From a virus, in the IMG/VR virus record IMGVR_UViG_3300035698_017305, positions 1 through 64,000 of that record: a DNA stretch of 64,000 nt. One strand, given 5' to 3'. A program made the translations under genes and the position numbers. The first letter of the stretch is position 1. Each line of letters starts with the position of its first letter. Of this stretch, positions 28,672 to 54,103 are shown in pieces. A model generated the notes under the pieces. It saw only the letters and a program-made list of their open reading frames with translations, had not been told where the DNA came from and made no database searches.

Positions 28672-28683
28672 CGTCCTACCTCC

Positions 28684-29335: not shown

Positions 29336-29447
29336 ACAAGGGGGAGAGAACGATGAGCCGTACACAGGATCAGAACATCGGGTAGACTCTTCAAAGAATC
29401 CCTAGTCGTCCTACGTCGAACACTCACCTGCCTCCTCTCCCCCTTGT
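29336..29447 (-). ncRNA. Candidate structured RNA closed by a 13-bp helix
   Basis: ACAAGGGGGAGAG and CTCTCCCCCTTGT pair perfectly across 112 bases. An inner hairpin (GGGATTCTT / AAGAGTC..CCC) fits inside. It lies in the gap between the two tRNA-Gly genes, where no frame has a good start; the overlapping frame begins inside a tRNA. No known family is recognised. I see nothing else in 29222-29517. Confidence 0.45.
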
Positions 29448-29517
29448 GGTTCCTGAGGGTGACTATGATATCATTGTCGGACAGTTGAAGCTGACCTCGC
29501 CACCTTTTTCGTTGTAA

Positions 29518-29588
29518 GCGGACAGTGGGATTTGAACCCACGGCAACCTGCATGGCAAGCAGGTACTCTACCACTGAGTTATGCCCGC
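29518..29588 (-). tRNA. tRNA-Gly(GCC)
   Basis: 71 nt. Acceptor GCGGGCA/TGTCCGC, anticodon stem CCTGC/GCAGG, loop TTGCCAT, T loop TTCAAAT. Confidence 0.92.
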
Positions 29589-29599
29589 ACATAGGGAAT

Positions 29600-30660: not shown

Positions 30661-30669
30661 CCCAAGGCG

Positions 30670-31206
30670 TTATAGTTCCATCTCTAGATAGTCCAGGTCA
30701 GCAGCTTCCAATGGGATTTCCAGTTCCAACGCATTGAGTTTAGACAATCTGGCCTGCAACTCTCTCTTCCTCTTCTTCAGCCCCTTGATCTGGAGCTTTA
30801 TACTGGCACGGCTGTCCAAAGGTCTCACCTCTACCTCGGTGATTACCTTCAGCCCGCCGTTTACTTCAACGCTGCTTCTCTTGGATGCTTCCGATCCTTC
30901 CAGAGCTACATCACATAAACCCAGTAATTCCTCAGTGTTCTTGATATCCCGCACAGTTTCACCCACGCCGTTGTTTGTGTTGAACGCGGCGAGGTGTGTG
31001 TTAACCAAATTGGACACTCGGAATGCGGCCTTGACCTTGGGCAGATATGTATCGAAGTCATCCATCTCCCCACGGCCTTCTACCACTACCCCATCGTTTA
31101 AGACCTCATGGTAGGCTACTCTGAATCTGGATTTCCCCAGCAAGGCGTTAACCACCTGCATAATTTCATTCTTGATAGGTAACCATTCGTTCACCGTTTT
31201 TCTCAT
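30670..31206 (-). CDS. Coiled-coil protein of unknown function
   Basis: 178 residues. The N-terminal two-thirds is mixed alpha/beta (RFRVAYHEVLNDGVVVEG); the end is a strong coiled coil with heptad Leu (IKGLKKRKRELQARLSKLNA) and an acidic tail. The start is ATG behind AAGGAG. It stands alone between RNA genes. Confidence 0.7.
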   Translation of the reverse strand: MRKTVNEWLPIKNEIMQVVNALLGKSRFRVAYHEVLNDGVVVEGRGEMDDFDTYLPKVKAAFRVSNLVNTHLAAFNTNNGVGETVRDIKNTEELLGLCDVALEGSEASKRSSVEVNGGLKVITEVEVRPLDSRASIKLQIKGLKKRKRELQARLSKLNALELEIPLEAADLDYLEMEL

Positions 31207-31255
31207 ACGTTTTACTCCTTAATTGTACGTGGGCCCCTCTGCCTGTCAGAGTTAA

Positions 31256-31343
31256 GAGCATACCGGGATTCGAACCCAGACCAATGCCATAACAGGTAGG
31301 AATCGAACCTATGGGGGAAGCTAACCCGACCGACTCTTTGCTC
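31256..31343 (-). tRNA. Degenerate tRNA-like element with two T-loop motifs
   Basis: Acceptor GAGCAAA with TATGCTC (one mismatch) and T arm CTGGG-TTCGAAT-CCCGG. The middle contains a second ATAGG-TTCGATT-CCTAC hairpin; if that is the anticodon arm the anticodon would be CGA (Ser). The D arm is poor. It is either a diverged tRNA-Ser or a tRNA relic. Confidence 0.4.
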
Positions 31344-31398
31344 AAGGCCCTTTATTTATAGTAACATTCGTCCTGTTAGTGTGCATGTTTTTGGTTAC

Positions 31399-31514
31399 TG
31401 TTGATGACCTGGGGCAGGATAGTTCTAGCCGCAGAGGGGCACCTAGATGCATCTAGATACTCCGTCCGTCCTTTCCGCCATGCTTGCAGAGGGCACTAAC
31501 ACAGGTCATCAACA
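31399..31514 (-). ncRNA. Long-range hairpin, possible noncoding RNA
   Basis: A perfect 13-bp pairing (TGTTGATGACCTG with CAGGTCATCAACA) encloses about 90 bases that contain the palindrome CTAGATGCATCTAG. It lies in the gene-free interval 31344-31686, between a tRNA-like element and the tmRNA. That interval also has an isolated T-arm-like hairpin (CTTAGG-TTCGATT-CCTAAG) near 31660. Confidence 0.4.
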
Positions 31515-31686
31515 ATATTGTTTCAGGCAGGAGGCAACCTACCGAGGGACTGTAACTCCCGAGGGTGTGCCAAGGGCGCAGGCGCTGCGGGATATCAGCT
31601 CCCTCAACTTTGTCTCCGGAGACTCTATTGAGTTTGCTCTAGACAGTATCATCTTAGGAATCGAACCTAAGCTCCATGCCCTTGTA

Positions 31687-32040
31687 TGGTGGAGGTGGCG
31701 GGAATCGAACCCGCGTCCGCGAACACTTACCGTGCTCATCTACGTGTGTGTCCAACCTTTCTATCCTGAAAGACATGGTTGGCAACGCTTTCAGGACCCC
31801 ACTGCCTTACCCGTGTGGGGAACACCGGGACGGGTTTTGTCAGCTATTACCCGATACTGACAACCGGGGAGTCTAAGGTGACGTTCTAGCCTACAGCGAC
31901 TCTCCGTAGGTAGACCGCGCTACTCTCTAAGCAGCGATGGGAAGTTGATTTTCGGCAACTATCTAGGTTTGTTCTGTAACGTAGAACATCCGACACGCAA
32001 AGCACGACTCAATTATTCCCGTCGAATCCAGGTCACCCCC
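31687..32040 (-). ncRNA. ssrA: Transfer-messenger RNA (tmRNA)
   Basis: The 5' end GGGGGTGACCTGGATTCGAC and 3' end GGTTCGATTCCCGCCACC + TCCACCA are canonical tmRNA termini; GGGGGTG pairs with CACCTCC and CCA is encoded. The tag frame at 31927-31956 reads Ala-Glu-Asn-Gln-Leu-Pro-Ile-Ala-Ala and stops with TAG. It follows TAGTT, where the resume codon is expected. GC-rich helices downstream fit the pseudoknot ring. tmRNA rescues stalled ribosomes and tags the product for proteolysis. It lies 7 bases after tRNA-Glu on the same strand. Confidence 0.93.
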
Positions 32041-32046
32041 ATAAGA

Positions 32047-32118
32047 GCTCGGGACGGGACTTGAACCCGCGATCACCAGATTGAAAGTCTGGTGGCTTAA
32101 CCACTGGCCTACCCGAGC
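32047..32118 (-). tRNA. tRNA-Glu(TTC)
   Basis: 72 nt. Acceptor GCTCGGG/CCCGAGC, anticodon stem CCAGA/TCTGG, loop CTTTCAA, T loop TTCAAGT. It is directly upstream of the tmRNA. Confidence 0.93.
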
Positions 32119-33585: not shown

Positions 33586-34239
33586 CTACAAGGTGGTCAT
33601 AGTGGCGAAGTCCATACGCGTCACCTTGTTGAATGTTCCACCGTTGATGTGCTGTTTGATAACGCCTGTGATAATACACGCGATACCAAATGCTGTATAG
33701 ATGATTGCTCTTTCCGTGCACGGTGCAGGAGTAGCCTCACTACTGGGATAGAGATTCTTTTCGTACATCTCTATGTCATCTGGATCGGTGGGGTCCACAG
33801 CGTACACCTCAGCATACTCTGCTCCCATGCGGGCTTCGATGAATAGGGGGATGTTGAAGTTGGACTTGCAGGCATTCCATATCTTGATACGGGTATCCAT
33901 TGAGTCAACTGCTACCACCACGGTACCTTCCAACTTTTGACTGGTGTACCACATAGGTTTGGTAGTGAGGGACGTGTCATGGAAGCACTTGACGATTTCG
34001 TTCATCGCCACCACCTTCATCTTACCCAGGTCTTCCTTCCGGAACATTTGGTTGGGGAGGTTGTGTGCTTCCACCTTATCGTTATCCCATACCGTCACCT
34101 TGCTTACACCCATCTTAGTGAGGGCAAACGTGGTGGGTGAACCTATTCCACCGACTCCGATGATGTGGACTTCGTAGTCTTTGATGGCGTCGGCACGGAG
34201 AATTCCGCTTTGACGGCAATAGATATCGCTTGCGAGCAT
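33586..34239 (-). CDS. E1/ThiF-family adenylyltransferase, Ubl cassette 1
   Basis: A 217-residue protein. The nucleotide-binding loop GVGGIGS is at residues 28-34, VWDNDKVEAHNLPNQ follows and a candidate catalytic Cys is in APCTERA (C174). E1/ThiF enzymes adenylate the C-terminus of a ubiquitin-like protein and pass it to Cys. The size is that of a minimal single-domain E1. Its start lies 97 bases inside the JAB gene in another frame; the N-terminal RQSG supports the long start. Confidence 0.88.
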   Translation of the reverse strand: MLASDIYCRQSGILRADAIKDYEVHIIGVGGIGSPTTFALTKMGVSKVTVWDNDKVEAHNLPNQMFRKEDLGKMKVVAMNEIVKCFHDTSLTTKPMWYTSQKLEGTVVVAVDSMDTRIKIWNACKSNFNIPLFIEARMGAEYAEVYAVDPTDPDDIEMYEKNLYPSSEATPAPCTERAIIYTAFGIACIITGVIKQHINGGTFNKVTRMDFATMTTL

Positions 34240-35225
34240 TGTAGTATGTCCTTTAAGTGGGATTTCTTCGTGTACAAGTATTCATCTAGTTCAATGATAC
34301 CATTGTCACCTTCAGATTCGTTTATGAAGAGGTCATCAAGTAGCTCCATCATCTTTTCAGATGAAGCTTGGACGATGCTGGCTAGGCGATTTGAATCTCC
34401 GATGACAGGCTCTTCCTTAGGCATATCCACCCAAGTGTCCTCTATCTCATCTTTTACCTTTTCTGCCGCGAGATCTTCTGCCATGAGTTCTTCTTCGTCC
34501 CCTACTACGTGAAGACCCATTTCCGCCAGCTCGTCCTCCATTTTTTTTGCTAGAGACTCCTGTAGATGTGCATCCATCTCCAGGTCTCCATACTCATCCT
34601 CCATGTACATGTTGTGAGGACTGCATAAGCCACGGGGGTCACCCCTACCGTTGCCCCTAGCAGTACCGTTACCACCGGGCCATGGACCTCCTTGACCGTA
34701 GTGGTGGGTGTGTACAGGTAAGGCTCGTTTTACCTTCTCTTCAATCTCTGCTTTGGCTATAGCCATCTCATCTATATTCACCTTCAGCACTGGGGTGATG
34801 AGTACATTGCTAACTGTGAGTCGCAACGGTTTGTACACGTCCACCCTACAGGAGTATTCCCCCCTCTTGTTCATGCACAACGATATTAGGAACGTATCGT
34901 TCTTCAGATCGTCGTCGATGGTGGAGTCGTCTACTGATGAGAAGGCGGTGTCCATGTCAACGTGTGAGTGCTGCCATAGGCGTAGTAGCACAGGGTCTAC
35001 CCCCGCCTTGTCTAGGTCATACACTAACTTACCGACATCATCTTGGTCCATATCCGTAGAGGCCCCATGACATTCCTGCTTAGGCAGGTACACATCAGAT
35101 ATGTGGAGCTTATTTGGGCGGTTCTCATCTTGGTGCACAATCCCTAGAGAGGACATCTCAATAGGGCAGGCGCTTACCCAAGCTTTCAGCTTATCCCAAG
35201 CTTTCTGGTCAATAGTAATTTCCAT
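34143..35225 (-). CDS. JAB/MPN metallopeptidase with JAMM motif, Ubl cassette 1
   Basis: A 360-residue protein. The N-terminal JAB domain has Glu23 (PIEMSSLG) and the zinc motif H86-S-H88-x7-S96-x2-D99. These peptidases cleave after the Gly-Gly of ubiquitin-like proteins, to mature a precursor or remove it from targets. A Gly/Pro-rich linker follows near residue 190, then a strongly acidic C-terminal region that may bind partners. Encoded six bases after the E2-like gene. Confidence 0.88.
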   Translation of the reverse strand: MEITIDQKAWDKLKAWVSACPIEMSSLGIVHQDENRPNKLHISDVYLPKQECHGASTDMDQDDVGKLVYDLDKAGVDPVLLRLWQHSHVDMDTAFSSVDDSTIDDDLKNDTFLISLCMNKRGEYSCRVDVYKPLRLTVSNVLITPVLKVNIDEMAIAKAEIEEKVKRALPVHTHHYGQGGPWPGGNGTARGNGRGDPRGLCSPHNMYMEDEYGDLEMDAHLQESLAKKMEDELAEMGLHVVGDEEELMAEDLAAEKVKDEIEDTWVDMPKEEPVIGDSNRLASIVQASSEKMMELLDDLFINESEGDNGIIELDEYLYTKKSHLKDILQCSQAISIAVKAEFSVPTPSKTTKSTSSESVE

Positions 35226-35230
35226 ACAAT

Positions 35231-37648
35231 CTACTCCTGGTCTTCTTCTTCTTCTGGTTCTTGCTCTCTCAACGCTTCTACCAACTCGTCTCCAATGGCG
35301 TCCAACATGGCTGCCGAGACAGTCCCTGCGTCTATGACAGCGGGTACCGGTGGTATTCTGAGTGTTGCCTCATTCAGTACTCTATGTACGGCCTGTATCG
35401 CCGCATCCCTAGCTGGGGTTTCCTCAGTCATAATTGACGGTGATATAACTATAGGCTCAAGTGCCTCACCTTCTGCGTCCAGGGCGGCTTGGAAACTATC
35501 CCTCATACCCTGTAACTCTGGGGAACCTTGTGCTAGCTCTACTATGCTTGGGTCTATCTCCAACACATCCTCAAGGGACTCCCCACTGCAACGGTCTACT
35601 TGCTCAACCGCAGAATCAACCTCAGCTATGTAATTCATAACTTCTTGGGCTCCTGGACTGTCCAGTGGGCCATACGGTACCGGTTCCTCATCTGCCATGT
35701 CCTCATCCCCAATGATCATCTCGTCTACAACCCTAGCAAACTCCCGGTCTTCCTCACTACGAATTTCAGTTGTTACACTAATCTCGTAAGGTTCAGCTCT
35801 CCCATATGACCAAGGCACAGTTGTTGAATCGTGGGCTGGAGGCATAGTCGGACTAGCGGCATCTACATGTCTCTGTGGAGCCCTGGGTGCTGCCACAAAC
35901 CCATACTGATTAAACCCATCACCACTGTCAGGTTGCCCCTCAACTACTTCAACTCCTACCTGCGGCGGTTCCACAGCGGCCTCAGATGCAGTTGAGTGTG
36001 CACATCTCGGGGATATGGTGCACCGAGCACAAGCTTGGGACCTATTTACCCTGTCGTAACAGAACTGTTGAGCAGCGACAATGGGGTAGTAGGGGCAGCC
36101 CGCTTGGTGGCATTCGGTACCCGATGAAGAAGATCCACTCACACGTCGTCTCTGTAAACAACTAATAGGTCCGGTCTCACCAATCTGTTGACCGTTTTGA
36201 CACGCGGTAATGCTCCGGTCTGTCCCTTCAGTGCAGTCATCCCTACTAGAACAAGTAGCACACTGAGACCAGTCACCTTCTTCTTCTAGATACTCAGCGC
36301 ACCTAGTGTAGCCAGAGTCGAAGTGGGGGCAATTCTCATCATCACAGACAGCGCAATCATGGTAACCGCTGTTTTCCCAACAACTATCCCGTCTGTTATC
36401 ATCGTCCTCATCTTCGTCATAGTCCTCATCATCACTGCCCCCATCACTGCCCCAGTTAGCAACCCTGACGTAGGAATCGTTGTCATTAGCATGGCGGAGG
36501 TAATCAGCTATTAGAGCCAATGCTGCCGCATACTCCTTGGTCTCTATCAGGTTCATTAACTGGTTGTCAATATTACCTAGGCAAGGGATACCAGAGTCAG
36601 AAATGTGCGGGTGACCAGAGCTCCGCCTGAACTTGGTGTCGTCCTGTTGATTTATCTTGAGGGCCCCAGTCCTGTCGTTGAGGGTTACCTCAAACCACCC
36701 CACGTCATACTTTACCCCATCATTCTCTCCAACGATGATGACCCTGGGGGTTGTGGCTACTATGTTGTCCTCTGATACCCTGATCTCTCTGTACACGTTG
36801 GGGATGAGTTTACACATAGCACCAAACTGGCCATCAAACTGAGACTTTTCCGAATCTTCAAAGTAGAGGTTGATGGACTTCATCTCTACCCTCTTCTTAT
36901 CACGCTCTCTACCCAGGACTAGGGCTTTTTGTCTCAGCTCCCTAATCTCGTGTCCAGCGGTGGTAATCTCCAGGTGAATGGCTGCAACCCTCTCCGATAC
37001 TGTCTTTCTACGCGTCCTGATGAAGTCCTCTTTGAGCTGTGTTGGGTCCCACACATGGTCTAACTCCTTGGTCAGCATCACCTCAATAGCCGCCCAAAGC
37101 CAGTTTACAGGGGCTTCTACGTCCGTACTGGACATATTTCGGAAACTTAGGGGTAAGAAGATATGACTACCCCCGTAAGAGAATCCGAAAAGTCCCGCCT
37201 CTTCTACTGGCGGGATTAGCTCAAAGGGTGTGCCTTCGTTTACATGCAAGGCTGTGTTGTATGGGCTTGAAATGACTCGTACCCCAGCCCCCAGGATTCT
37301 CCTTTTGGTCGCGTTTAGATCAGAGTAGAACTTAGCGTAATCAAATACTTTCGTTTTGACCTCAATGATCTTGTCCTTGACCTCGGTCCTGAACGTCTTC
37401 ATATCTCCTGACGTGTTGGATTGTACATATAGATGTAGTCCACGCCTCAGTACCATGTACCCTTCCGGATCTCGGTTGGTATACCCTTCAATCGGGTGAT
37501 CCCCAGCTAGTAACCGGGATAGTGGCTGTTGTAAGTCACATTCCGTATAGATGATTGGGATCCCCTTACTTGAGGAGAAGAACTCTAGTTGAGCCTTTAG
37601 TGCTGGGGGTGGTGCCGTTGTTGTGTTTTGTATCTCCGCTGTCGGCAT
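35231..37648 (-). CDS. E2-like protein with coiled coil and Cys-rich tail, Ubl cassette 1
   Basis: 805 residues from the ATG at 37648, behind GGGAGGAA. The central domain carries HPHISDSGIPCLGN, with His346, His348 and candidate catalytic Cys356; this HPH...G.[PI]C.G motif marks bacterial E2/RWD-fold proteins in Ubl operons. A coiled coil precedes it (about residues 205-255). After residue 420 comes a very acidic stretch, then about 18 Cys spread over 150 residues in CxxC-type pairs, perhaps several zinc knuckles acting like an E3. The final 200 residues are acidic and low-complexity. Confidence 0.78.
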   Translation of the reverse strand: MPTAEIQNTTTAPPPALKAQLEFFSSSKGIPIIYTECDLQQPLSRLLAGDHPIEGYTNRDPEGYMVLRRGLHLYVQSNTSGDMKTFRTEVKDKIIEVKTKVFDYAKFYSDLNATKRRILGAGVRVISSPYNTALHVNEGTPFELIPPVEEAGLFGFSYGGSHIFLPLSFRNMSSTDVEAPVNWLWAAIEVMLTKELDHVWDPTQLKEDFIRTRRKTVSERVAAIHLEITTAGHEIRELRQKALVLGRERDKKRVEMKSINLYFEDSEKSQFDGQFGAMCKLIPNVYREIRVSEDNIVATTPRVIIVGENDGVKYDVGWFEVTLNDRTGALKINQQDDTKFRRSSGHPHISDSGIPCLGNIDNQLMNLIETKEYAAALALIADYLRHANDNDSYVRVANWGSDGGSDDEDYDEDEDDDNRRDSCWENSGYHDCAVCDDENCPHFDSGYTRCAEYLEEEGDWSQCATCSSRDDCTEGTDRSITACQNGQQIGETGPISCLQRRRVSGSSSSGTECHQAGCPYYPIVAAQQFCYDRVNRSQACARCTISPRCAHSTASEAAVEPPQVGVEVVEGQPDSGDGFNQYGFVAAPRAPQRHVDAASPTMPPAHDSTTVPWSYGRAEPYEISVTTEIRSEEDREFARVVDEMIIGDEDMADEEPVPYGPLDSPGAQEVMNYIAEVDSAVEQVDRCSGESLEDVLEIDPSIVELAQGSPELQGMRDSFQAALDAEGEALEPIVISPSIMTEETPARDAAIQAVHRVLNEATLRIPPVPAVIDAGTVSAAMLDAIGDELVEALREQEPEEEEDQE

Positions 37649-37740
37649 GTTGGGTTCCTCCCTAAATAAAAGGTGGGGGTGGGGGAAAAGGAAGGGGGAG
37701 TGCTGTCCTCCCCACATCCTACGCATCCCCCCGGAATGCT

Positions 37741-43647: not shown

Positions 43648-44187
43648 ATGGGTAAATTGGAGAGGTATGTTCAGTCACCCAACAGGTTAGACTCCTACAG
43701 GTACCAAGCCATTAAAAGGATATGCAGTGGGCTGTATACCACTGGTAGTACTGCACTGGAGGTCGGCCCAGCAGATGGCACCTTTGCCAGACTGATATCT
43801 GATTTAGGGTTTACCACCACAGCGGTAGACATGGAGAGGAACCCGCAGGTCAGGACTGAAAAGAGAAACGCATACGAGTATGTTATTGTCCCCGGTGGGA
43901 TAGAGAAGTTTGACCATACCCCGTTTGATCTCGTCCATGCTGGGCAAATGCTGGAGCATGTACCCGATCCTTATGAAGTACTATCCCATATCAAGCAATT
44001 GGTTAGGGGGCATATGATCATGACAGTACCGAACTTTCAGATAAAGAGCGGTGAGCACCTAACGGTGTTTACTAAAGAATCAGCTATGGACCTGTTCTCT
44101 AGTTGCTTTGAGGTGACCCACTCAGAAGTGGTGAGGGACCCCAGGAAACATAAAGAGGATTATGTCCTAGTTGGGAGGCCAATATGA
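43648..44187 (+). CDS. Class I SAM-dependent methyltransferase
   Basis: A 179-residue protein. SAM motif I ALEVGPADGTFARL at about residue 35, acidic end of strand 2 AVDME, FDLVHAGQMLEHVPDPYEV (motif II region) and HMIMTVPN. These short enzymes often methylate sugars or other small molecules in glycan clusters. Encoded 11 bases after the GT2-like gene and overlapping the next by ATGA. Confidence 0.85.
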   Translation: MGKLERYVQSPNRLDSYRYQAIKRICSGLYTTGSTALEVGPADGTFARLISDLGFTTTAVDMERNPQVRTEKRNAYEYVIVPGGIEKFDHTPFDLVHAGQMLEHVPDPYEVLSHIKQLVRGHMIMTVPNFQIKSGEHLTVFTKESAMDLFSSCFEVTHSEVVRDPRKHKEDYVLVGRPI

Positions 44188-45209
44188 GCCCTGTTATATC
44201 CAAGAGTGAGCCAGACATTCTAGCACTCCATGCCGCTGGAGGCAGTGGACACTCCGGTGCTTTTCTAAACTATGTAAAGAGACACCATCCAAACTTCTGG
44301 TCCAGGATAGGGATGCGGCGGTTCAACATGTCCAAGGATGCAGCACGAACTGATACGTTTCCGTGTGTGGCTGATAAGTACAAGCTCCTGCTACTATGGT
44401 CCCGTGACAGTCTAGGTCTCACTAACCCAGTACTGCTACAGAGGCTGATGGAGCTGGAGGCTAGAGCTTCCACTAAAGGTGTACCATTCATTAACCCACC
44501 TTCAGCATCTGACTCCACCTCCCGTACAGAGCAGTGCCGGATTTGGTATGAGTATTCTCTGCCCGGCGCTGTAGTTCAGGTATGCCCACGAACACTGGAG
44601 GGGTTCAAACACTTCGGTGACACCTATGGCTGGCCATTCATCATAAAGCGTAACTGGGGGCACGGTGGGGGTGACCACGTACAGCTTATAAGCTGCATTG
44701 AAGACGTGAACCTAGAGTCTATGGTAACTGATCGTGTTTGCATTCAATATGTGGAAACTAAGGGACAAGATGGGCTGTATAGGAAGTACAGAGCTGTCGT
44801 GGTGGGTAATCAAGTCATACCTGCTCATGTACAGATATCTAAAACGTGGATGGTAAATTCCGGATCTCAGGATGTTCCCAGCCAGCTTCTGTCTCAAGAG
44901 ACCAAGGAGTATGTGGATGATGACATGCTACCTCACCTACGCTACAACCTGAAGCTGGCGGTACACACACTAGGCTTGACCATAGGGGCGGTGGACTATT
45001 CCTTTGACGCTAAACACGGTTTGGTGCTGTGGGAGGTCACGCCCTGTTTTTCTTTAGCTGACACTATTAAAAGGTATGGATCCGCTGTGTCTAACCGAGT
45101 GTGTGAGGCTATCTACCGGCATTACAAGACTACGTTGGGGGAAGAGTTTAAGGACTTTGAGCTAAAAAGGAAGTGGCCGTTAGACCACCCCTTTTTGTTA
45201 CGCAGCTAA
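44184..45209 (+). CDS. ATP-grasp family protein
   Basis: A 341-residue protein. WPFIIKRNWGHGGGDHVQL (nucleotide loop), VCIQYVETK, RKYRAVVVGNQVIP and AVDYSFDAKHGLVLWEVTPCF (metal-binding end) follow ATP-grasp order. It probably forms an amide bond or phosphorylates a substrate; partner unknown. It closes the plus-strand glycan operon and converges on the DUF932 gene, overlapping its end by 12 bases. Confidence 0.78.
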   Translation: MSPVISKSEPDILALHAAGGSGHSGAFLNYVKRHHPNFWSRIGMRRFNMSKDAARTDTFPCVADKYKLLLLWSRDSLGLTNPVLLQRLMELEARASTKGVPFINPPSASDSTSRTEQCRIWYEYSLPGAVVQVCPRTLEGFKHFGDTYGWPFIIKRNWGHGGGDHVQLISCIEDVNLESMVTDRVCIQYVETKGQDGLYRKYRAVVVGNQVIPAHVQISKTWMVNSGSQDVPSQLLSQETKEYVDDDMLPHLRYNLKLAVHTLGLTIGAVDYSFDAKHGLVLWEVTPCFSLADTIKRYGSAVSNRVCEAIYRHYKTTLGEEFKDFELKRKWPLDHPFLLRS

Positions 45210-46808: not shown

Positions 46809-47017
46809 TGCAAGGGTCCAAGGTACCAGCACCACTGTGTCCGAATCCTTTATGCCGCAATCAGTTCACCATACGAGTGAAGACTGTGGCAGGTGGGAAG
46901 CGCGCTGAATACATCTGTCCTAAATGCGCGGAGTCTTTTGAGATTCCTCGTGTTGTTATGGGGGAACCCAACCTAAAAAGAAGGGGGAGCACCATTGGCT
47001 CTCCCCCCTCTGACTAA
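46808..47017 (+). CDS. Zinc-ribbon protein
   Basis: 69 residues with LCPNPLCRNQF and YICPKCAESFE, a classic CxxxxC...CxxC ribbon. Such proteins bind nucleic acid or RNA polymerase. The last 40 bases overlap a terminator serving the opposite strand. Confidence 0.7.
   Translation: MQGSKVPAPLCPNPLCRNQFTIRVKTVAGGKRAEYICPKCAESFEIPRVVMGEPNLKRRGSTIGSPPSD
46972..47007 (-). terminator. Terminator of the E1-2 gene, inside the opposing zinc-ribbon gene
   Basis: On the minus strand GGGGGGAGAG...CTCCCCC followed by CTTCTTTTTAGG. The stem lies within the coding end of 46808-47017 and may also act on the plus strand. Confidence 0.65.
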
Positions 47018-47664
47018 CTGAACAGGTTGTAGGCAGTCATCTTCATGTCTTTCAACGTGAACATGTATCCTAGGTACTCGTCGTTGTCTATAAACCGGCA
47101 TATAGCCTCAGCCATCATACCCACAGTGAAGTGTACTAGGTTACGCGCAAGTGGGTACTCACACACATCCAGTCCGTCCTCTTCAACAGCGGGTCGTTTA
47201 AACCTAGGGTTCCAATACACCTCGGAGTAACCTTGAGCGGCCATCCCTCCGTGTAAGCAGGGCACCACACCATTTCCGCATGTGTCATGGATTAGTTGCC
47301 GGGAGTCCCAGTTGTCAAACGCATCCACCACAAGGCGGTTGCCCCTAAGTATCTTGAGTGCGTTCTTTTCAACCAGCCTACACGTCTCTATCACAGGTTT
47401 AACCCGGTATGCTTGGTAGATCATAGCCTGCATCACAGCAGCTTTGTTCTTCCCAATGAACCTCCTTTCAAAGTTCTGGTTACCTAGGTTATGAGATTCT
47501 ATCTTGTCATCATCCAGGAACCTGACGTTATTAAACCCCAGTTGGTACAGGATAGGAATTAGGTTTGACCCTAAAGCCCCCACGCCACACACCATTATCT
47601 GTGAGTTCTTTCTTCGTGTCAGGTCACCTCGATACAACTCCTCATGGGTTAGGGCATCCGCCAT
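47014..47664 (-). CDS. E1/ThiF-family adenylyltransferase, Ubl set 2
   Basis: A 216-residue protein. GVGALGSN at residues 27-34, FLDDDKIESHNLGNQNF and VVDAFDNWDSR, with a candidate catalytic Cys in DVCEYPLARN (C168). It differs clearly from the E1 at 33586-34239, so the phage has two E1 types. Its start lies inside the JAB-2 gene (23-base overlap), as expected for an E1-JAB pair. Confidence 0.88.
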   Translation of the reverse strand: MADALTHEELYRGDLTRRKNSQIMVCGVGALGSNLIPILYQLGFNNVRFLDDDKIESHNLGNQNFERRFIGKNKAAVMQAMIYQAYRVKPVIETCRLVEKNALKILRGNRLVVDAFDNWDSRQLIHDTCGNGVVPCLHGGMAAQGYSEVYWNPRFKRPAVEEDGLDVCEYPLARNLVHFTVGMMAEAICRFIDNDEYLGYMFTLKDMKMTAYNLFS

Positions 47665-48127
47665 TTTTCCCTCTTATCTGCGGTAGACATGCCTGTCCGA
47701 GTATGGAGGCCCCTTCAAAGTAAAGGTTTCGTCCACGCATGGATAGCAGATCTATGCGGTTGTGGATTTGAATTGGTTGCTTATCCGGCAGGGGTAGAAA
47801 CAGGAAACACCCTATGGTTTGGAAGTCACCAGACGCTGATGCGATGATACATAGCAACGGTCTTCCCAATGCTATTGCCCACCCTGAGTGAGTCCTATGG
47901 TCTGTAGCACTCCAGTGCACGCCCCCACCCGGTGGATGCGTATGCAAGAAGCCAATGAAGTCACTGTGGGGTACAGACAGTTCGTGCAGTCTTTCCATAG
48001 TGACTTCAAAGTCGAAGTTAGCCGGTCCGTTGTCAGTGTAATCAATAGGTATCTTCTGGAGGAGGTGCTCAGCATCTATAGCCTCAGCGAAGTGCAAGGT
48101 CCATCCTAGTTCCCGGAACCTAGTCAT
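47642..48127 (-). CDS. JAB/MPN metallopeptidase, Ubl set 2
   Basis: 161 residues from the ATG at 48127. The zinc motif is H62-T-H64-x8-S73-x2-D76 (LHTHPPGGG..WSATDH). It is shorter than the JAB of cassette 1 and has no acidic tail. It would release or mature a Ubl; the partner may be the protein at 52809-53036. Coupled to the vWA gene upstream and E1 downstream. Confidence 0.85.
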   Translation of the reverse strand: MTRFRELGWTLHFAEAIDAEHLLQKIPIDYTDNGPANFDFEVTMERLHELSVPHSDFIGFLHTHPPGGGVHWSATDHRTHSGWAIALGRPLLCIIASASGDFQTIGCFLFLPLPDKQPIQIHNRIDLLSMRGRNLYFEGASILGQACLPQIRGKNGGCPNP

Positions 48128-48890
48128 AGTAGACACCCCGATTGACCAGACCGCGTTTAGCGGCTTCTATAACCTGGGGGCTGACTCCCAGCTCATCCAT
48201 CATCTGTGAGGTGTGTAGGTTCCGTTCCACTATCATAGAGAACACTCTCCGCTCTAGGTCAAGCTGCTGTACAGCCTCAGTGAGAACTGTAGTCACGCCC
48301 TCACTGGATGTAACAGCCCGTACCGTACCACCAGTTGGGGCTGCAAACTCGGCGAATGCTTCCTCCAACGGTATATCGTGGTGTCCATGTACACATAGGG
48401 CGTGAATGATCACACCTTTCTTCTCAAATGCGGATGACACGTCATCCTCTGTGATACCTTCCCCCTGAGGGTAATGGTCATACTCCTTGTACTTGGGGAT
48501 CCCGTGTTGAGGGGCGTCACCAACCAGTATGCAGTACTTAAGGGAGTGCTCCCTCCATGGGTACTTCAGCGAGGCCGCCAACCCAGTCAGTACTGCCTCA
48601 GGAGCGTCAGCCCCTCCACCAGCGGTGAGCTTACGGATCATAGGTCCCACTTCGGATACCGGGACTAACCTACCATCCGTCATGTCCTTAACTATCCAGG
48701 CATCTGTGAAGTCTCGGTAGGCTGTCACCCCAACTTTGATGTCGGTGTCGGTGTCCTTGGCTACCTTGTTGATCATGCTGAGCATGGTTGTTTTGCAGTA
48801 TTCTAGATCTCTACCCATGGATCCAGTGGCGTCTAAGCAGAACACCAAATCCAGGGATGAGATGTTCTCTTTTTCACCAATCGTATTCAT
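48120..48890 (-). CDS. vWA domain protein with C-terminal helical part
   Basis: 256 residues from the ATG at 48890, which has ACGGAG upstream. MIDAS motif DATGS near residue 18, then YRDFTD and GGGADAPEAV, followed by LVGDAPQHG. This resembles the vWA subtype found with E1/JAB or ternary signalling sets. It starts inside the preceding gene and abuts JAB-2, so all three are probably translated together. Confidence 0.82.
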   Translation of the reverse strand: MNTIGEKENISSLDLVFCLDATGSMGRDLEYCKTTMLSMINKVAKDTDTDIKVGVTAYRDFTDAWIVKDMTDGRLVPVSEVGPMIRKLTAGGGADAPEAVLTGLAASLKYPWREHSLKYCILVGDAPQHGIPKYKEYDHYPQGEGITEDDVSSAFEKKGVIIHALCVHGHHDIPLEEAFAEFAAPTGGTVRAVTSSEGVTTVLTEAVQQLDLERRVFSMIVERNLHTSQMMDELGVSPQVIEAAKRGLVNRGVYYD

Positions 48891-49743
48891 CATCATCTCC
48901 GTCATCATCGTCATCTCCAATAGAGTCGGCCCCGTTGGTCCCGGGAACGCTCACTCTGTAGATCAGTTTTCTACGTTCCCCCTCAGCCACTACGCTTCCT
49001 AGTGCGGTTAGGTCATACACCTTGTCGGTACCATTCAGACATATCCCGGCGTTTACCACCTGGAAGTTAGTCTTTCTGACCCTGGTGAAGTAGGGGTTGC
49101 CAGCCCTAGACTTCCATTCGATCACAAGGTGGTCTCCTTGGTCCATCAGACGCATGAGCTTTCCGCCTGAGGCTAAGAGAGCGTCTCCTACCAACTCCTC
49201 TACAGATTTCTTGCGCCGTGCTTTCTCGTGCTGTACAGCCATGGCTAGGGCTAACAAGTCTGTGGGGGTCATGAACTTGGCTTTCTCTACAGTACCTGCC
49301 TTGAACATCTCTAACATGACAGGGGTTTGATCGAACCCTATCCCAGCAGGTTCCCAGTAGTACCAGTTGGTATGATCGGAGGCTACCCTGACCACATCAA
49401 ACCTTTCCGCACCCTCGACCAAGTGGATCGGAATGATCTCATCGTTCCAGGCACCAAACCAGATGCCGTCTTCTTCATAGAACAAACGTACATTAGCCTT
49501 CACAGGGAGGCACTTCAGGTAGTCGTCCTTCTCTATCTCATCTGCGGGCCGTTGAATTCTTAACCAAGGGGGAGCACATCTGAACAGATGCCACCCATGA
49601 GATGGATTACCCTGCACCTTGAGGGTTACCAGGGTCTTGTCCATTATCACTTTGATGCGCCTACTCCCTAGGAAAGGAGCTACCACGTCAGTAGGTGGTT
49701 TGGCACGCTCCTTTTGGATCATCTTTTCGACAAGACTATCCAT
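48874..49743 (-). CDS. Protein of unknown function with acidic tail
   Basis: 289 residues. It has strand-rich halves (TLVTLKVQGNPSHGWHLFR; YRVSVPGTNG), a central helix with KARRKKSVEELVGDALL, and a run of Asp/Gly at the C-terminus that could bind Ca2+ or a partner. Its 3' end encodes the start of the vWA gene. No family is recognised; the position ties it to the Ro60/E1/JAB island. Confidence 0.7.
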   Translation of the reverse strand: MDSLVEKMIQKERAKPPTDVVAPFLGSRRIKVIMDKTLVTLKVQGNPSHGWHLFRCAPPWLRIQRPADEIEKDDYLKCLPVKANVRLFYEEDGIWFGAWNDEIIPIHLVEGAERFDVVRVASDHTNWYYWEPAGIGFDQTPVMLEMFKAGTVEKAKFMTPTDLLALAMAVQHEKARRKKSVEELVGDALLASGGKLMRLMDQGDHLVIEWKSRAGNPYFTRVRKTNFQVVNAGICLNGTDKVYDLTALGSVVAEGERRKLIYRVSVPGTNGADSIGDDDDDGDDDEYDW

Positions 49744-49784
49744 AGGACTCTCCTTTCATTGTTTAGGAATGTGTGGGTAGGGAG

Positions 49785-49858
49785 GGAGAATGACGGGATT
49801 CGAACCCGCAGTACCTGGAGTCACAGTCCAGTGCCATAACCGTTAGGCTACACTCTCC
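49785..49858 (-). tRNA. tRNA-His(GTG)
   Basis: 74 nt with the extra G-1:C73 pair typical of tRNA-His (GGAGAGTG / CATTCTCC). Anticodon stem CTGGA/TCCAG, loop CTGTGAC, T loop TTCGAAT. It separates the TROVE gene from the vWA group. Confidence 0.92.
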
Positions 49859-49887
49859 ATAAATTCTCCGCCCCCTACCCACACTAA

Positions 49888-51606
49888 TTAGGCTGCTCTA
49901 TCGTCTACGGGCAGTGGTGTGTCCATGATCTCTTGCAGAGTGTTCCTAAGAGTTCTGCGAGACAGGAACCTGATAACATCCGGGACCGCAATGAGGTCAG
50001 TGCTGTCGTCCAGGTTGAACACTTGAATGGCGGTGCCAGCGGTGGCCGCAGCATCACGTACACAGCGGTGTCTCTTGTCTTCCAGACTGCCCCACCTTCC
50101 CAGTTTAATCAAGCAAATACTTACCTCATCTGATCCAGGAGGAGCCGTCTCCAGATACTTGGGCCACACATCCGGGAACCGAGGAGCACTATTCTCTCCT
50201 TCATCCGTGATGATAATGACGTTTTCCGCAAAGTCACCACTCCTCATCATCTCGTCGATGCCTACACCAACAGAGGTGGATCCAAGTGCTCTTACCCTAC
50301 GGAACGCCGTAGTCCAGTCCTGTAGCGTACCTCTGCCCGGTACATTGATCTTGTCGGCTTTCACCTCGAAGGTGTATGTGTGCAGAGGAGTACCCGCAAC
50401 CATGGAGGCCGAAATCATAGACCCCAAGGTCTTGGCCAGCTCGATTGCAGCACCCATGGACGTACTACAGTCAACCAGAAGAACGGTCGGCTTGTTGATA
50501 ACCTTCTTGACGCGGGCGTCAGACACTTGGAGAATTTTCTCCTTGATATCTGCGCTGACAGCGGTAGATTCCGCAGCTTTCACCGCCTTTAAGGTATCAA
50601 CCCGACCAGACTTCTTGGCCTTCTTCAGTCGAGACTCCAAGAGCTTGGCAAGGTCCGGGTTGTCCCATGCACCTTTCTTCCTGAATGCTTCCACATTCAT
50701 CAGAAGCTCCTGAGGAGACATTACACTGATCAGTGCTGCCATAACAGCAGGAGTCTGAGTAGTCACCGAGCCTACCGCGATTGGGTAGGGGATTTTGTAC
50801 TTGGCGATCAATTCAGCCTGCTCAGCAGGGTCACTTGTGGTACTCAGCACCTTCTGGTAGTACAGCTTAGGAGTCCTGTGTTCGAGTGGATTCTTCTCAA
50901 ACAGGGCTGACTGTACCCATCCAACTGGTGGTGTATGCGTCCAACTGTACAGAGACTTCAGTGCGCTACCAGCTCTGACAGCGATGGCATCAAACATTTC
51001 TGTGTTGTCCTCCAGGTCACGGAGTAGGCCACCCACAACCTTGCTGACCCTCTTAGGAATGTTCTTAGCTCCCGGGATACCGGTTACCTGGAACACTGAG
51101 GTCATGTAGGTGCCGTCCCGATTCTTCTCAAACCGGAGGTCTGCATCTTTTGCTCTGGGAATCTTGGCTTTGACCAACCTCAGGAATGCTTCCCGTTCCG
51201 TAGCCGTGGAAGTGCCGTTCCGTAGCTTTGGGTTTAGGTCCGTCTTTGCCTTCATGATGTCCTTGTCGTCAGACAATTTCACCACAACCTTACCTTCCTT
51301 GAGCAGGTTGATGATCCGGTGAATCTCATACACTGGGAACCTGGGCAGTAAGGCAGCCCCAACATCCCTGAACAGGACGTCATCAGGCATACCTCGGAGT
51401 AAGTACGCTGTCATCAGTTCCTTGTGATCCCGGATCTCCGTGTTGTCCATGGCCCATACAGCGAGGTGGGCGAAGAATTCCGGGTCCGCTTCGAACATTG
51501 TCCGGAATAACTCATGAGATCCCTTGCCGATATTCCGGTGTGGAGTACTCATGAAAGCCTTTAGCATGTCCAATCGGACATCAGCTTCTCTGGTTTCGGT
51601 CGCCAT
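49888..51606 (-). CDS. rsr: TROVE-domain protein, Ro60/Rsr homologue
   Basis: A 572-residue protein. The N-terminal and middle parts form the TROVE helical-repeat ring (FRTMFEADPEFFAHLAVWA; YLLRGMPDDVLF; SWTHTPPVGW). The C-terminal vWA-like domain has the MIDAS-like VLLVDCSTSMG and GVGIDEMM. Ro60 proteins bind Y RNAs on the outside of the ring and misfolded RNA ends in the hole, and in bacteria work with PNPase and rRNA maturation. Seven Y-like RNA elements lie directly upstream on the same strand, which supports the call. Confidence 0.92.
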   Translation of the reverse strand: MATETREADVRLDMLKAFMSTPHRNIGKGSHELFRTMFEADPEFFAHLAVWAMDNTEIRDHKELMTAYLLRGMPDDVLFRDVGAALLPRFPVYEIHRIINLLKEGKVVVKLSDDKDIMKAKTDLNPKLRNGTSTATEREAFLRLVKAKIPRAKDADLRFEKNRDGTYMTSVFQVTGIPGAKNIPKRVSKVVGGLLRDLEDNTEMFDAIAVRAGSALKSLYSWTHTPPVGWVQSALFEKNPLEHRTPKLYYQKVLSTTSDPAEQAELIAKYKIPYPIAVGSVTTQTPAVMAALISVMSPQELLMNVEAFRKKGAWDNPDLAKLLESRLKKAKKSGRVDTLKAVKAAESTAVSADIKEKILQVSDARVKKVINKPTVLLVDCSTSMGAAIELAKTLGSMISASMVAGTPLHTYTFEVKADKINVPGRGTLQDWTTAFRRVRALGSTSVGVGIDEMMRSGDFAENVIIITDEGENSAPRFPDVWPKYLETAPPGSDEVSICLIKLGRWGSLEDKRHRCVRDAAATAGTAIQVFNLDDSTDLIAVPDVIRFLSRRTLRNTLQEIMDTPLPVDDRAA

Positions 51607-51651
51607 ATGACTTTCTCCTTTTCATTTCTGGACCGCTACCGTTTTATAGGT

Positions 51652-51712
51652 ATAAAAAAAGATCGCAGGAAGTCACCGAGGTAGGTCCAATACCACGGAA
51701 GTGCTTGCGATC
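51652..51712 (-). terminator. Terminator of the Y-like RNA array
   Basis: AGATCGCA / TGCGATCT stem with an inner hairpin (CACTTCCGTGG / ... GACTTC region), followed by TTTTTTT on the minus strand. It ends the array transcript 45 bases before the Ro60 start. Confidence 0.8.
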
Positions 51713-51746
51713 TTCCCCATGTGGGGACTGTCTAATGAATATGGTT

Positions 51747-51825
51747 AGAACAGCTAGCTAGTCGTGGGAACCGTTGTTTTTCGCCAAATGAAAATGTATG
51801 TTCCGACTGTAGGGCTAGCTGTTCT
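51747..51825 (-). ncRNA. Y-like RNA element 1 (no tRNA domain)
   Basis: A perfect 12-bp outer stem (AGAACAGCTAGC / GCTAGCTGTTCT), the conserved internal loop strands CCTACAGTC and CACGACTA, an inner stem GGAAC/GTTCC and a 28-nt unstructured loop. It is the minimal form of the repeat and shows the scaffold stands alone. Confidence 0.8.
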
Positions 51826-51839
51826 TTTCTGACTTGGTT

Positions 51840-51986
51840 TCTGGGGTAGCGAGTCTGTAGGCCCAATTGATTTGTTAGTCTGATCCGTAGTCAGATGCCT
51901 TAACCACTTGGCCACATATGATTTCTCACATGATGGGATTCGAACCCACGTTAAAATGTATGGCCCACATGTAGGGCTACCCTAGA
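51840..51986 (-). ncRNA. Y-like RNA element 2, permuted tRNA-like domain
   Basis: 11-bp outer stem and inner GGCC pairing. The insert reads on the minus strand: T arm (GTGGG-TTCGAAT-CCCAT), acceptor 3' strand CATGTGA, a GAAA tetraloop, acceptor 5' strand TCATATG, D arm, and anticodon arm TCTGA-CTACGGA-TCAGA (ACG). The tRNA is thus opened between its variable region and T arm. Confidence 0.82.
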
Positions 51987-51999
51987 ACTGTATAGTGTT

Positions 52000-52149
52000 T
52001 TTCGAGAGTGCTAGTCGAAGGACCCATTGTAAAACTGGATGCTCTACCATTGAGCTACTTGGGCTCAAGCCCAAGACAGGAATTGAACCTGCGCCTTCCC
52101 CTTGGTATGGGACGTTTGTGTATGGCCCGTCTGTAGGGCACTCTCGAAA
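52000..52149 (-). ncRNA. Y-like RNA element 3, permuted tRNA-like domain
   Basis: Perfect 12-bp outer stem TTTCGAGAGTGC / GCACTCTCGAAA. Insert order: anticodon arm (CCC-ATACCAA-GGG, ACC by position), T arm (GCAGG-TTCAATT-CCTGT), acceptor CTTGGGC, TTGA loop, GCCCAAG, D arm. It is opened between the D and anticodon arms. Confidence 0.8.
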
Positions 52150-52163
52150 TTGTGTATAAATGC

Positions 52164-52317
52164 TATGGAACTAGCGAGTCGTAAAGCCCATTGATCTTTA
52201 ATCGCTTGTGCTAAATACAAGTGCCTTTACCAATTTGGCCACTCTGGGTGAGCCCCAGAGGAAGGATTCGAACCTCCAAAATGATATGTATGGCTTAACT
52301 GTAGGGCTAATTCCATA
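52164..52317 (-). ncRNA. Y-like RNA element 4, permuted tRNA-like domain, anticodon TTA
   Basis: Outer stem TATGGAACTAGC / GCTAATTCCATA (11 of 12 pairs), inner stem AAGCC/GGCTT. Insert order: T arm, acceptor CTCTGGG, GCTCA loop, CCCAGAG, D arm, anticodon arm CTTGT-ATTTAGC-ACAAG, then a variable-arm-like GAT..GATC hairpin. TTA would pair with UAA. Confidence 0.8.
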
Positions 52318-52330
52318 TTGAAACTGTTAA

Positions 52331-52468
52331 GGTGCGGCTAGCTAGTCGAGAGACCCATATTAGGTACACCGAGGTGGAATTGAACCACCGACTTTTTGCT
52401 TAATAGGCAAATGCTCTATCCAACTGAGCTATTGGTATGTATGGCCTAACTGTAGGGCTAACCGAACC
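52331..52468 (-). ncRNA. Y-like RNA element 5 enclosing a linear tRNA
   Basis: Outer stem 10 of 12 pairs, inner stem around GGCC/GACC. The insert is an ordinary-order tRNA at 52366-52438. Confidence 0.78.
52366..52438 (-). tRNA. tRNA or tRNA-like domain, anticodon ATT (Asn codon AAU)
   Basis: 73 nt. Acceptor ATACCAA/TCGGTGT (one A-C mismatch), D stem GCTC/GAGC, anticodon stem TTTGC/GCAAA, loop CTATTAA, T arm GGTGG-TTCAATT-CCACC. A34 is unusual for Asn, where GTT is expected, so it may be a mimic. Confidence 0.7.
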
Positions 52469-52492
52469 TATATTTGATTTCCAAAGAACTGA

Positions 52493-52664
52493 ACATTAGA
52501 GAAGATGGGGCAGCTAGTCGAGAGATCCCAAGTAACTTAACTAAGCTACTCCCCCGTAGTGGTGGGGGAGGCTGGAATTGAACCAGCGACACTTTACTTT
52601 CACGTAAATGCTCTACCATTGTTTGTATGATCCAACTGTAGGGCTACCTCATCATCTCTAATGT
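52493..52664 (-). ncRNA. Y-like RNA element 6, tRNA-like domain opened in the D loop
   Basis: The longest outer stem (20 of 22 pairs) and an inner GATC pairing. Insert order: D-arm 3' half (AATGGTAGAGC), anticodon arm (TTTAC-GTGAAA-GTAAA, GAA-like), T arm, acceptor CTCCCCC, loop ACCACTAC (contains ACCA), GGGGGAG, then D-arm 5' half TAGCTTAGTT. Confidence 0.8.
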
Positions 52665-52674
52665 CAAAGAATTA

Positions 52675-52810
52675 AACTGTGAGCGGGTAACTAGTCGAAG
52701 GGCCTTTGTAACGTTCTGCTTCATCAGCAGCCCCCGTATGGTGGAGGCTCAGGGAGTTAAACCCCGAACTGTTATGTACGGTCCCACTGTAGGGTTACCC
52801 CGTCACAGTT
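52675..52810 (-). ncRNA. Y-like RNA element 7, reduced tRNA-like domain
   Basis: Outer stem 15 of 17 pairs, inner stem GGGCC/GGTCC. Insert: T arm (CGGGG-TTTAACT-CCCTG), acceptor AGCCTCC with ACCA in the loop and GGGGGCT, then a CTGCT/AGCAG hairpin in place of D and anticodon arms. Its 5' end touches the stop codon of 52809-53036. Confidence 0.75.
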
Positions 52811-53036
52811 ATTTACCGAACTTACCGTCTGGCCTCAAGTGTACTGTGCCGGACGCTTCAAATGGGTCTGCAACAAACGAGTTGAATGTTGAGACGTCTT
52901 TGCTGAGTGCACCGGCTACTGCCAGCTTAAGGTCTGCTTCATCGAAGACATCTCCTAAGTCCAACTCCTCCACTGGGAGTGTTTGGGATTGTCCGTCAAC
53001 GAACACGTTTATGAATTGGAAGTTATTACGTTCCAT
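52809..53036 (-). CDS. Possible second ubiquitin-like (beta-grasp) protein
   Basis: 75 residues from the ATG at 53036 with AAGGAG upstream. Pattern: strand FQFINVFVDGQ, strand SQTLPVEEL, helix DEADLKLAVAGALS, strands with FVADPFE and GTVHLRPDGKFGK. This fits a small beta-grasp fold, and single-domain Ubls in E1/JAB operons often end in ..KFG. There is no Gly-Gly. It lies upstream of the Y-like array and in the same direction as E1-2 and JAB-2. Confidence 0.45.
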   Translation of the reverse strand: MERNNFQFINVFVDGQSQTLPVEELDLGDVFDEADLKLAVAGALSKDVSTFNSFVADPFEASGTVHLRPDGKFGK

Positions 53037-53083: not shown

Positions 53084-54103
53084 TCAAGAACTTTTTATTT
53101 TTGATTTCCCCCACATGACCGGTGCAGGTTTTCCGTCCTTGAGTATGGGCTTAGCCTTGTGTTTCTTCTTTGGCCTGGGGGGAGGGGCTGGTAGCTTGTC
53201 AGACTTCCTGATCTTATCCAACGTTAGCTTAGCCACGGCCTCTCCTATAGCCAGTGCCTGTGAGTCCCTGGGGAATAGATGGCGTTTACCATCAGATAAC
53301 CCGTAGTGCCGGTTACCTTCCCAGAATATATAGCTACCATCCCGTAGTTTACTGTAGTCTAGTGCTACGAAATCGTGTCCGAGCAGTTGGCCCGCCCGCA
53401 ATACTTGATCAGCATTAGGCTCACCGCCCCTCAAGAACATCCTGTCCTCGTGCAGGGCCTGTGGGTGTGTAAGTGTATCCCTCATGTGAACGTTCCACTT
53501 GTCAGCGACAACCAACTGGCGCAGAATCAGTTGATCTCCTATGACAAACGTTCTCCACTTCCGGTAGTATCCATCTTCACTCTGGTAATCTGCATACTTG
53601 ATAGCCAGGGTTAGCTTTACCCTACTGTCTTTGATTACCTTAGCCGCCTCTTTACTGTTGTGTACGAGGTGCATGTGACGGCCACCATGGTCACTGTCTC
53701 TTCTTAGAATGGCTGGGTAGCCAATAGATAGAGCAGTGAATGATGAGAACAGTTGATGCTGCGGAGTTGGGATACCATTATCTTCCCACACCCTATACAT
53801 CGTAGAGTGTTTGTTATCGAACTTACTGATTGGTTGTATCACAGGCAGGCCAATCTCGCGTGCCCGGACTTCTATCTGTTTGGCTTTGGAGAGGTACTCT
53901 TGCTTGGCTCCATACGACCAGAACAAGATCGCATCATAGTCGAACAACTTGGGCATGGCCGTGAACTGGGGACATATAGTTGTCCATTTCAGCCCAGCCT
54001 TTTGAAACCCGTCAGTCAGGGATTTACCTGCGGGGTTACGGGTAAACATCGCTTCTGTGTTAGTTACCACTAGAACTCTAGGTCCCTGACCGACTGGTGC
54101 CAT
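53084..54103 (-). CDS. ATP-grasp family protein
   Basis: A 339-residue protein. YPAILRRDSDHGGRHMHLV (nucleotide loop), LAIKYADYQSEDGYYRKWRTFVIGD, FVALDYSKLRDGSYIFWEGN (metal end). A basic Pro/Lys-rich tail follows (PPPRPKKKHKAK). It resembles the ATP-grasp protein at 44184-45209 (both have a G-Y/LYRKYR/W block), so they may act on the same type of glycan or peptide. Confidence 0.75.
   Translation of the reverse strand: MAPVGQGPRVLVVTNTEAMFTRNPAGKSLTDGFQKAGLKWTTICPQFTAMPKLFDYDAILFWSYGAKQEYLSKAKQIEVRAREIGLPVIQPISKFDNKHSTMYRVWEDNGIPTPQHQLFSSFTALSIGYPAILRRDSDHGGRHMHLVHNSKEAAKVIKDSRVKLTLAIKYADYQSEDGYYRKWRTFVIGDQLILRQLVVADKWNVHMRDTLTHPQALHEDRMFLRGGEPNADQVLRAGQLLGHDFVALDYSKLRDGSYIFWEGNRHYGLSDGKRHLFPRDSQALAIGEAVAKLTLDKIRKSDKLPAPPPRPKKKHKAKPILKDGKPAPVMWGKSKIKSS

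Follow-up and report, generated by a model that had tools for sequence, protein, structure and literature searches.

A stretch of viral DNA of 64,000 nucleotides (positions 1 to 64,000 of the IMG/VR record IMGVR_UViG_3300035698_017305, a virus record of 132,813 bases; hereafter the window) contains a module in which genes for a ubiquitin-like protein (Ubl), an E1-like enzyme and a JAB peptidase lie beside a gene for the TROVE protein Ro60 and an array of Y-like RNAs. A first-pass annotation of the sequence had read all genes of this module in one direction, and they are indeed all present on the minus strand, in the transcription order Ubl, Y-like array, TROVE, tRNA-His, acidic-tail protein, vWA, JAB and E1. 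The overlaps that it described among the last four protein genes are likewise there, between the frames of E1 and JAB, of JAB and vWA, and of vWA and the acidic-tail protein. The features are as follows.

52809-53036, minus strand: Ubl, 75 amino acids, first gene of the module; AlphaFold2 model, ubiquitin-like neighbours, family ending (F/Y)G
~51744-52807, minus strand: Y-like array of seven units
49888-51606, minus strand: TROVE/Ro60 protein, 572 amino acids; PHROG 850 match and family profile
49784-49857, minus strand: tRNA-His within a long inverted repeat; a local extra, outside the conserved set
48874-49743, minus strand: new protein with an aspartate-rich (acidic) tail, 289 amino acids; no Pfam or NCBIfam family
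48120-48920, minus strand: vWA-domain protein, a local addition; Pfam VWA_4 at 5e-8
47642-48136, minus strand: JAB/JAMM peptidase; weak Pfam match by itself, family motif, archaeal Rpn11 homologue
47014-47664, minus strand: E1-like (ThiF fold) enzyme, 216 amino acids; Pfam ThiF at E 1e-23

The annotation had counted the vWA protein and the aspartate tail in the linked set, and we set both aside. The vWA gene is not kept in the module across related loci and is rejected as a core component; the tail is not a key feature, because it is missing in many members of the new-protein family, about half of the relatives. These two, together with tRNA-His, are local extras of the window.

The remaining arrangement recurs in other viruses. 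The distant phage genome LR756511 (595 kb; locus L002) has the TROVE, tail protein, JAB and E1 genes in the same order, at 31-36% identity. A single-sequence TROVE scan of IMG/VR found no relative, but a two-sequence profile found nine loci there, and an E1 profile added one more (L012); a two-sequence profile of the acidic-tail protein matched nothing in IMG/VR although the gene occurs there, so that scan is insensitive. In the ten virus loci found by the TROVE probe alone, Ubl lies upstream in nine, and the acidic-tail protein, JAB and E1 lie downstream in all eight that have enough sequence; the Ubl open reading frame was never used as a probe in finding virus loci. Ubl, TROVE, tail protein, JAB and E1 share one strand throughout the virus loci, apart from genes lost where contigs end and from L005, in which no Ubl was detected, and no component is on the other strand or misplaced in order. 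The first-pass annotation had asked whether the E1/JAB pair might lie far from TROVE in related phages; in the related phage loci they are close together, in the same order. The linkage of these genes exceeds chance. In a tree of the E1 sequences, the virus rows fall into at least two groups, near planctomycete rows, with the window on a long branch whose placement is unsure. Phages may have gained the module on more than one occasion.

The linkage is not confined to phages, since bacterial genomes carry the module too. Scanning 84,980 species of bacteria and archaea for TROVE yielded 80 loci, in cyanobacteria, planctomycetes, Chloroflexota and others. Among loci with enough sequence, profiles built solely from virus proteins place Ubl upstream in 49 of 64; downstream, 24 of 46 have the tail protein and 23 of 46 have E1. 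Strand and order are as expected in every case, and a JAB is seen in virus loci and in several planctomycete loci. The genes also keep company at the level of whole genomes. Among 117 evenly drawn cyanobacterial genomes, the nine with TROVE are also precisely the nine with the tail protein and the nine with E1, and the remaining 108 have none of them; Ubl occurs in eight of those nine and in no others. One of the nine is the seed genome, leaving an effective table of 8 in 116, for which the chance of one exact match is ~2e-12 if shared ancestry is ignored. Because the genes are on separate contigs in three of the nine genomes (G037, G089 and G145), this match is not merely a matter of physical linkage. 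In planctomycetes, TROVE is found in four of 149 genomes and the tail protein in three, with two common to both. One planctomycete genome, G263, gave at first only a partial match to the tail protein, and then proved to have a compact divergent operon (locus L103, 5587-9782):

5587-7494: TROVE-like protein with vWA
7498-8415: relative of the tail protein, with AGVCLSGED
8529-8918: JAB, Prok-JAB at 1e-8
within the same operon: Ubl ending RPKVPFG-GGARGA, and a ThiF-fold E1

The gene order is altered in this operon and all five proteins are retained, which makes it a good entry to further branches of the system. Synteny and exact co-occurrence strongly support a functional tie between the ubiquitin-like pathway and the Ro60/Y RNA particle.

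Components of the ubiquitin-like pathway

The first-pass annotation had proposed the frame at 52809-53036 as a possible Ubl and had offered structure prediction as a check. The protein has no Pfam match at E up to 10. Its AlphaFold2 model (pLDDT 84) has strands at residues 8-13 and 16-21, a helix at 33-43, and strands at 54-59 and 64-69, that is, beta-beta-alpha-beta-beta. Foldseek ranked protein L domains best and ubiquitin-like domains lower, none of them significant; the neighbours found by VIA-align are ubiquitin, FUBI, the Caldiarchaeum ubiquitin and the bacterial Ubl of an E1-E2-Ubl complex, with Z 4.5-5.2 for ubiquitin-like neighbours over 54-67 residues. The modelled fold is a beta-grasp, in keeping with the proposal, with a likeness that falls short of proof of descent. 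The strongest evidence on the Ubl is its C-terminus. The family has ~65 members ending in R-(P/A)-x-x-x-(F/Y)-G, with the (F/Y)G invariant; most stop at the glycine, and six carry K, KIET, K, KS, KS or GGARGA after it, the window protein ending in LRPDGKFG followed by K. Such extensions are present at 6 of 15 loci with a JAB and at none of 49 loci without one (Fisher p 7e-5, uncorrected for ancestry), which is the pattern expected of a precursor trimmed by JAB.

Both enzymes resemble those of conjugation pathways. E1 has the nucleotide-binding region CGxGAxGS and an invariant cysteine, Cys168, in D(V/I)CxYPLA. Among solved structures it is closest to proteins of the ThiF type and to eukaryotic E1s, and PADLOC scored its relatives with E1-E2 models. 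The JAB family motif HxHx7-9SxxD is present in 16 of 16 members, the JAMM residues of the window protein being H65TH...S76ATD79, and the nearest solved relative is an archaeal Rpn11 homologue; JAB is predicted to be an enzyme that processes or deconjugates Ubl. Prokaryotic gene clusters of E1, E2, JAB and Ubl have been classified as types 6a-6e, including PRTRC (6d) (Iyer, Burroughs and Aravind 2006; PMC1779556). Like those types and CBASS Cap2/Cap3, the module unites in one operon a small beta-grasp Ubl with a terminal glycine, a ThiF-fold E1, a JAB (here with JAMM residues) and an extra protein with a conserved cysteine. Unlike types 6a-6e, it has Ro60 and Y RNAs as partners, and its Ubl and cysteine protein belong to no Pfam family; TROVE is not mentioned in the survey of these types (PMC1779556). 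The PRTRC system was considered and rejected: at E up to 10 the new protein matches no Pfam or NCBIfam model and the Ubl no Pfam model, Prok-E2_D and Prok_Ub included, and E1 scores 35 bits with PRTRC_ThiF, far below the cut-off of 145. The window has a further E1/JAB set at 33586-37726, only distantly related to the Ro60-linked one, with a ThiF protein (33586-34239; Pfam 9e-21), a Prok-JAB protein (34143-35225; weak match) and an 831-residue protein without a family.

For the acidic-tail protein, none of 11 family members matches Pfam or NCBIfam significantly, and identity within the family is only ~25-30%. Residues ~16-135 are predicted to be double-OB-like. They resemble the interdomain of Mpa (Foldseek E 3e-4; VIA Z 6.8 over 107 residues, root-mean-square deviation 4.2-4.3), ahead of RNA-binding OB proteins. 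Mpa is the ATPase of another protein tag, Pup. Unlike Mpa and ARC (PDB 7ljf, 3fp9), which share this arrangement, the new protein has no ATPase domain and has an extra C-terminal cysteine domain. In the C-terminal part, a long helix is predicted to lead into four strands, which are followed by a loop containing Cys235 and then a further helix, an order of secondary structure that matches a small UBC fold. The cysteine stands in (A/S)G(I/V)CLxGxDxx(F/Y)DLxSL, the core of which is invariant in 32 diverse members, and in E2 enzymes the sequence around the cysteine reads GxICL. The fold search, which barely covered the C-terminal domain, returned no UBC folds. We regard the protein as a candidate E2-like enzyme or RNA-binding adaptor. 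Genes for AAA ATPases lie just upstream of it in one planctomycete (L019:11736-13214) and one cyanobacterium (L053:16396-17601).

Ro60 and its tRNA-bearing Y RNAs

The identification of TROVE and of a Y-like array in the first-pass annotation is borne out by profile homology to Ro60 and by seven Y units. The window protein matches PHROG 850 at 8e-10 and does not match the Pfam TROVE model; the profile of its family (A15) matches TROVE 9l5y at 4e-8 and RO60 9nen at 3e-6. Its vWA half has a DxSxS metal ion-dependent adhesion site (VDCSTSM) in which D379, S381 and S383 are invariant in 25 sequences. Phage-encoded TROVE proteins are also known from jumbo phages (PMC7824862); that review deals with TROVE only under RNA repair, and no passages on JAB or Ubl were found in it. 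The seven units share a closing stem of ~12 pairs, CCTACA and CGACT(A/C)G loops, and then a short stem, and differ in what the stem carries:

52677-52807, minus strand: unit 1, Y stem with T arm, acceptor hairpin and D-like arm (YrlA-like order); fold -49.9 kcal/mol
52500-52656, minus strand: unit 2, anticodon-like arm, T arm, acceptor hairpin and D 5' half (permuted tRNA); weak YrlA match
52328-52470, minus strand: unit 3, tRNA-Asn(att) module at 52363-52438, uninterrupted, on a Y stem
52161-52319, minus strand: unit 4, T arm, acceptor hairpin, D arm and anticodon arm (permuted tRNA)
51997-52151, minus strand: unit 5, T arm, acceptor hairpin and D arm (YrlA-like order)
51836-51989, minus strand: unit 6, T arm, acceptor hairpin, D arm and anticodon arm (permuted tRNA)
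51744-51827, minus strand: unit 7, Y stem-loop only, no tRNA module

Units 2, 4, 5 and 6 can be read as tRNA only after circular rotation (0 of 100 shuffles for each; 14 of 96 rotations for unit 2), so units 2 and 4-6 are not ordinary tRNA genes; unit 1 reads as tRNA in no rotation. Taken together with the intact unit 3 and the YrlA-like order of units 1 and 5, the rotations show a single array of tRNA modules opened at differing points of the circle: intact, or opened at the D loop, the variable loop or the anticodon. tRNA-like domains on Y RNAs near Ro60 are established (Chen et al. 2014, cited in PMC7790460). Units 1 and 5 share with YrlA (RF02553) the order T arm, acceptor hairpin, D arm; unlike YrlA, the array reaches scores of 36.4 (the best, for unit 5) and 25 bits against a gathering threshold of 69, and its other units are opened elsewhere or intact. 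We found no description of mixed permutations inside one Y RNA array in the literature searched. The operon of Rsr, Y RNA and rtcBA for RNA repair (PMC7790460) likewise combines TROVE with Y RNAs, one bearing a tRNA-like domain; the module described here differs from that account in adding a Ubl pathway and in having Y RNAs with whole or differently permuted tRNA modules.

The Y units follow the protein genes into other genomes. A motif derived from the stem has 28 matches in the stretch between Ubl and TROVE of 15 loci, one elsewhere, and none on the opposite strand. We built a Y RNA model (R1) from twelve bacterial units and unit 3 of the window; in it, 19 pairs are changed on both sides, and 95% of cells are paired, versus ~40% when the alignment is slid. 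Full-length matches of at least 60 bits occur in 58 of 79 sources, all searched virus loci included, and none of the nine loci with TROVE but no partner genes is among the best 300 matches. Unit 3 aligns with cyanobacterial Y RNAs and scores 80 bits, being itself part of the model alignment; the unusual anticodon ATT of its tRNA-Asn recurs in locus L006 and in some cyanobacteria. In bacteria, the majority of modules are ordinary tRNAs grafted onto the Y stem. A conserved stem around a variable module, beside a Ro60 gene, marks the seven window units as Y RNAs, with predicted binding to Ro60. The window tRNA-His is possibly another stem-mounted tRNA: at 49773-49884 it is flanked by perfectly complementary arms, GTGTGGGTAGGG and CCCTACCCACAC, and the best fold of the region is not the cloverleaf but a single long hairpin (z -5.1).

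Function of the module

Synteny, co-occurrence, the fold and glycine end of the Ubl, and the tRNA-bearing Y RNAs together make a Ubl pathway that goes with the Ro60-Y RNA particle well supported. That the module is a dedicated ubiquitin-like pathway working on or with this particle is in our view an even prospect. In such a pathway, JAB would first remove residues beyond the glycine, where these are present, and E1 would adenylate the C-terminal glycine and hold Ubl on its invariant cysteine. Ubl could then pass from E1 to the new protein, with the GICL cysteine as an E2-like acceptor, while the double-OB domain contacts RNA or the particle; the target of Ubl would be Ro60 itself or some protein that the particle holds, from which JAB might remove it again. 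Y RNAs would gate Ro60 and offer tRNA-shaped docking modules. The first-pass annotation had suggested ubiquitin-like modification acting on, or controlled by, an RNA quality-control particle; the functional tie stands, from synteny and exact co-occurrence, whereas conjugation itself, Ro60 as target or regulator, and conjugation as opposed to sulfur chemistry do not follow from these data.

Several observations weigh against a dedicated conjugation pathway. The Ubl has one terminal glycine rather than two, and no JAB was found near the module genes in cyanobacteria or in most bacterial loci. Some Gemmataceae, and one Bacillota locus, have the TROVE family with no tail protein in the genome, and the Gemmataceae indicate that Ro60 can live without the pathway. 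Profile comparison does not support E2 identity of the new protein: hhalign against E2s gave 1% and aligned the GICL motif only, and no HPN motif precedes the cysteine in the alignment of the family. Sulfur transfer is a serious alternative, because tRNA-shaped RNAs lie in the operon and Ubl-E1 pairs thiolate tRNA elsewhere; TtuB/TtuC and Urm1/Uba4 both serve tRNA thiolation. E1 would in that case make a Ubl thiocarboxylate, and the cysteine of the OB protein would pass sulfur to the tRNA-like modules of the Y RNAs or to tRNAs. The tRNA modules inside the operon, the OB-like RNA-binding fold, the scarcity of JAB in bacterial loci and the scores of E1, which are highest with the ThiF and thiF_fam2 models, all agree with sulfur transfer. 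We think it unlikely; against it, the CxxC pairs of ThiF/MoeB-type enzymes are found in none of 40 E1 members, and a non-exhaustive look at the neighbourhoods found no rhodanese, TtuA, ThiI or cysteine desulfurase.

We are similarly doubtful of conjugation without an E2, like that of archaeal SAMP/UbaA, in which the OB protein would be an RNA-binding adaptor or a substrate and its cysteine structural. The missing E2 profile match fits such a scheme, and so does the clearest fold match of the new protein, to the double-OB interdomain of Mpa, a proteasomal ATPase; but the cysteine is invariant despite the low identity of the family, and the new protein shares its genomes with E1. Lastly, the neighbourhood might have no common function, with genes that co-travel or share a promoter and with Ro60/Y RNA and the Ubl pathway working separately. 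Some cyanobacteria have several kilobases between module genes, and gene neighbourhoods can be mobile; however, co-occurrence is exact even across split contigs, the divergent operon retains all five proteins, and synteny extends across several phyla and viruses, such that we judge this highly improbable.

Ro60 and Y RNAs have been studied as factors of RNA quality control and repair, and bacterial Ubl systems mostly as antiphage modules. If the Ubl pathway indeed acts on or with the Ro60-Y RNA particle, a conserved set uniting both would be a bacterial ubiquitin-like pathway dedicated to an RNA-protein particle. We put at about one in two the broader proposal of a separate class of bacterial Ubl systems, in cyanobacteria, planctomycetes, other phyla and large phages, in which Ro60 or the proteins it holds are modified, tRNA-mimicking Y RNAs direct the modification and an OB-plus-cysteine protein is the E2-like enzyme. 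The first-pass annotation knew of no described link between Ubl and Ro60, and we too found no description of TROVE or Ro60 with Ubl terms in open-licence full text, where a prior mention elsewhere is possible. The module offers two protein families without a Pfam match, one possibly a new E2, and culturable cyanobacteria (Microcoleus, Nostoc) provide a testable setting for the purpose of tRNA mimicry by Y RNAs.

Other features

Two proteins of ~340 amino acids, alike by eye and encoded on opposite strands of the window at 44184-45209 and 53084-54103, resemble ATP-grasp enzymes (one weak CPSase_L_D2 match). At locus L094, the labels of an open reading frame at 10771-11061 conflict: it is annotated as an HNH endonuclease, and a plasmid database lists it, at 100% identity, as a gene for lincosamide resistance. 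A cluster of tRNA genes occupies 17832-32118 of the window, on the minus strand, with a transfer-messenger RNA whose tag is AENQLPIAA and one tRNA called as tRNA-Pyl(cta).

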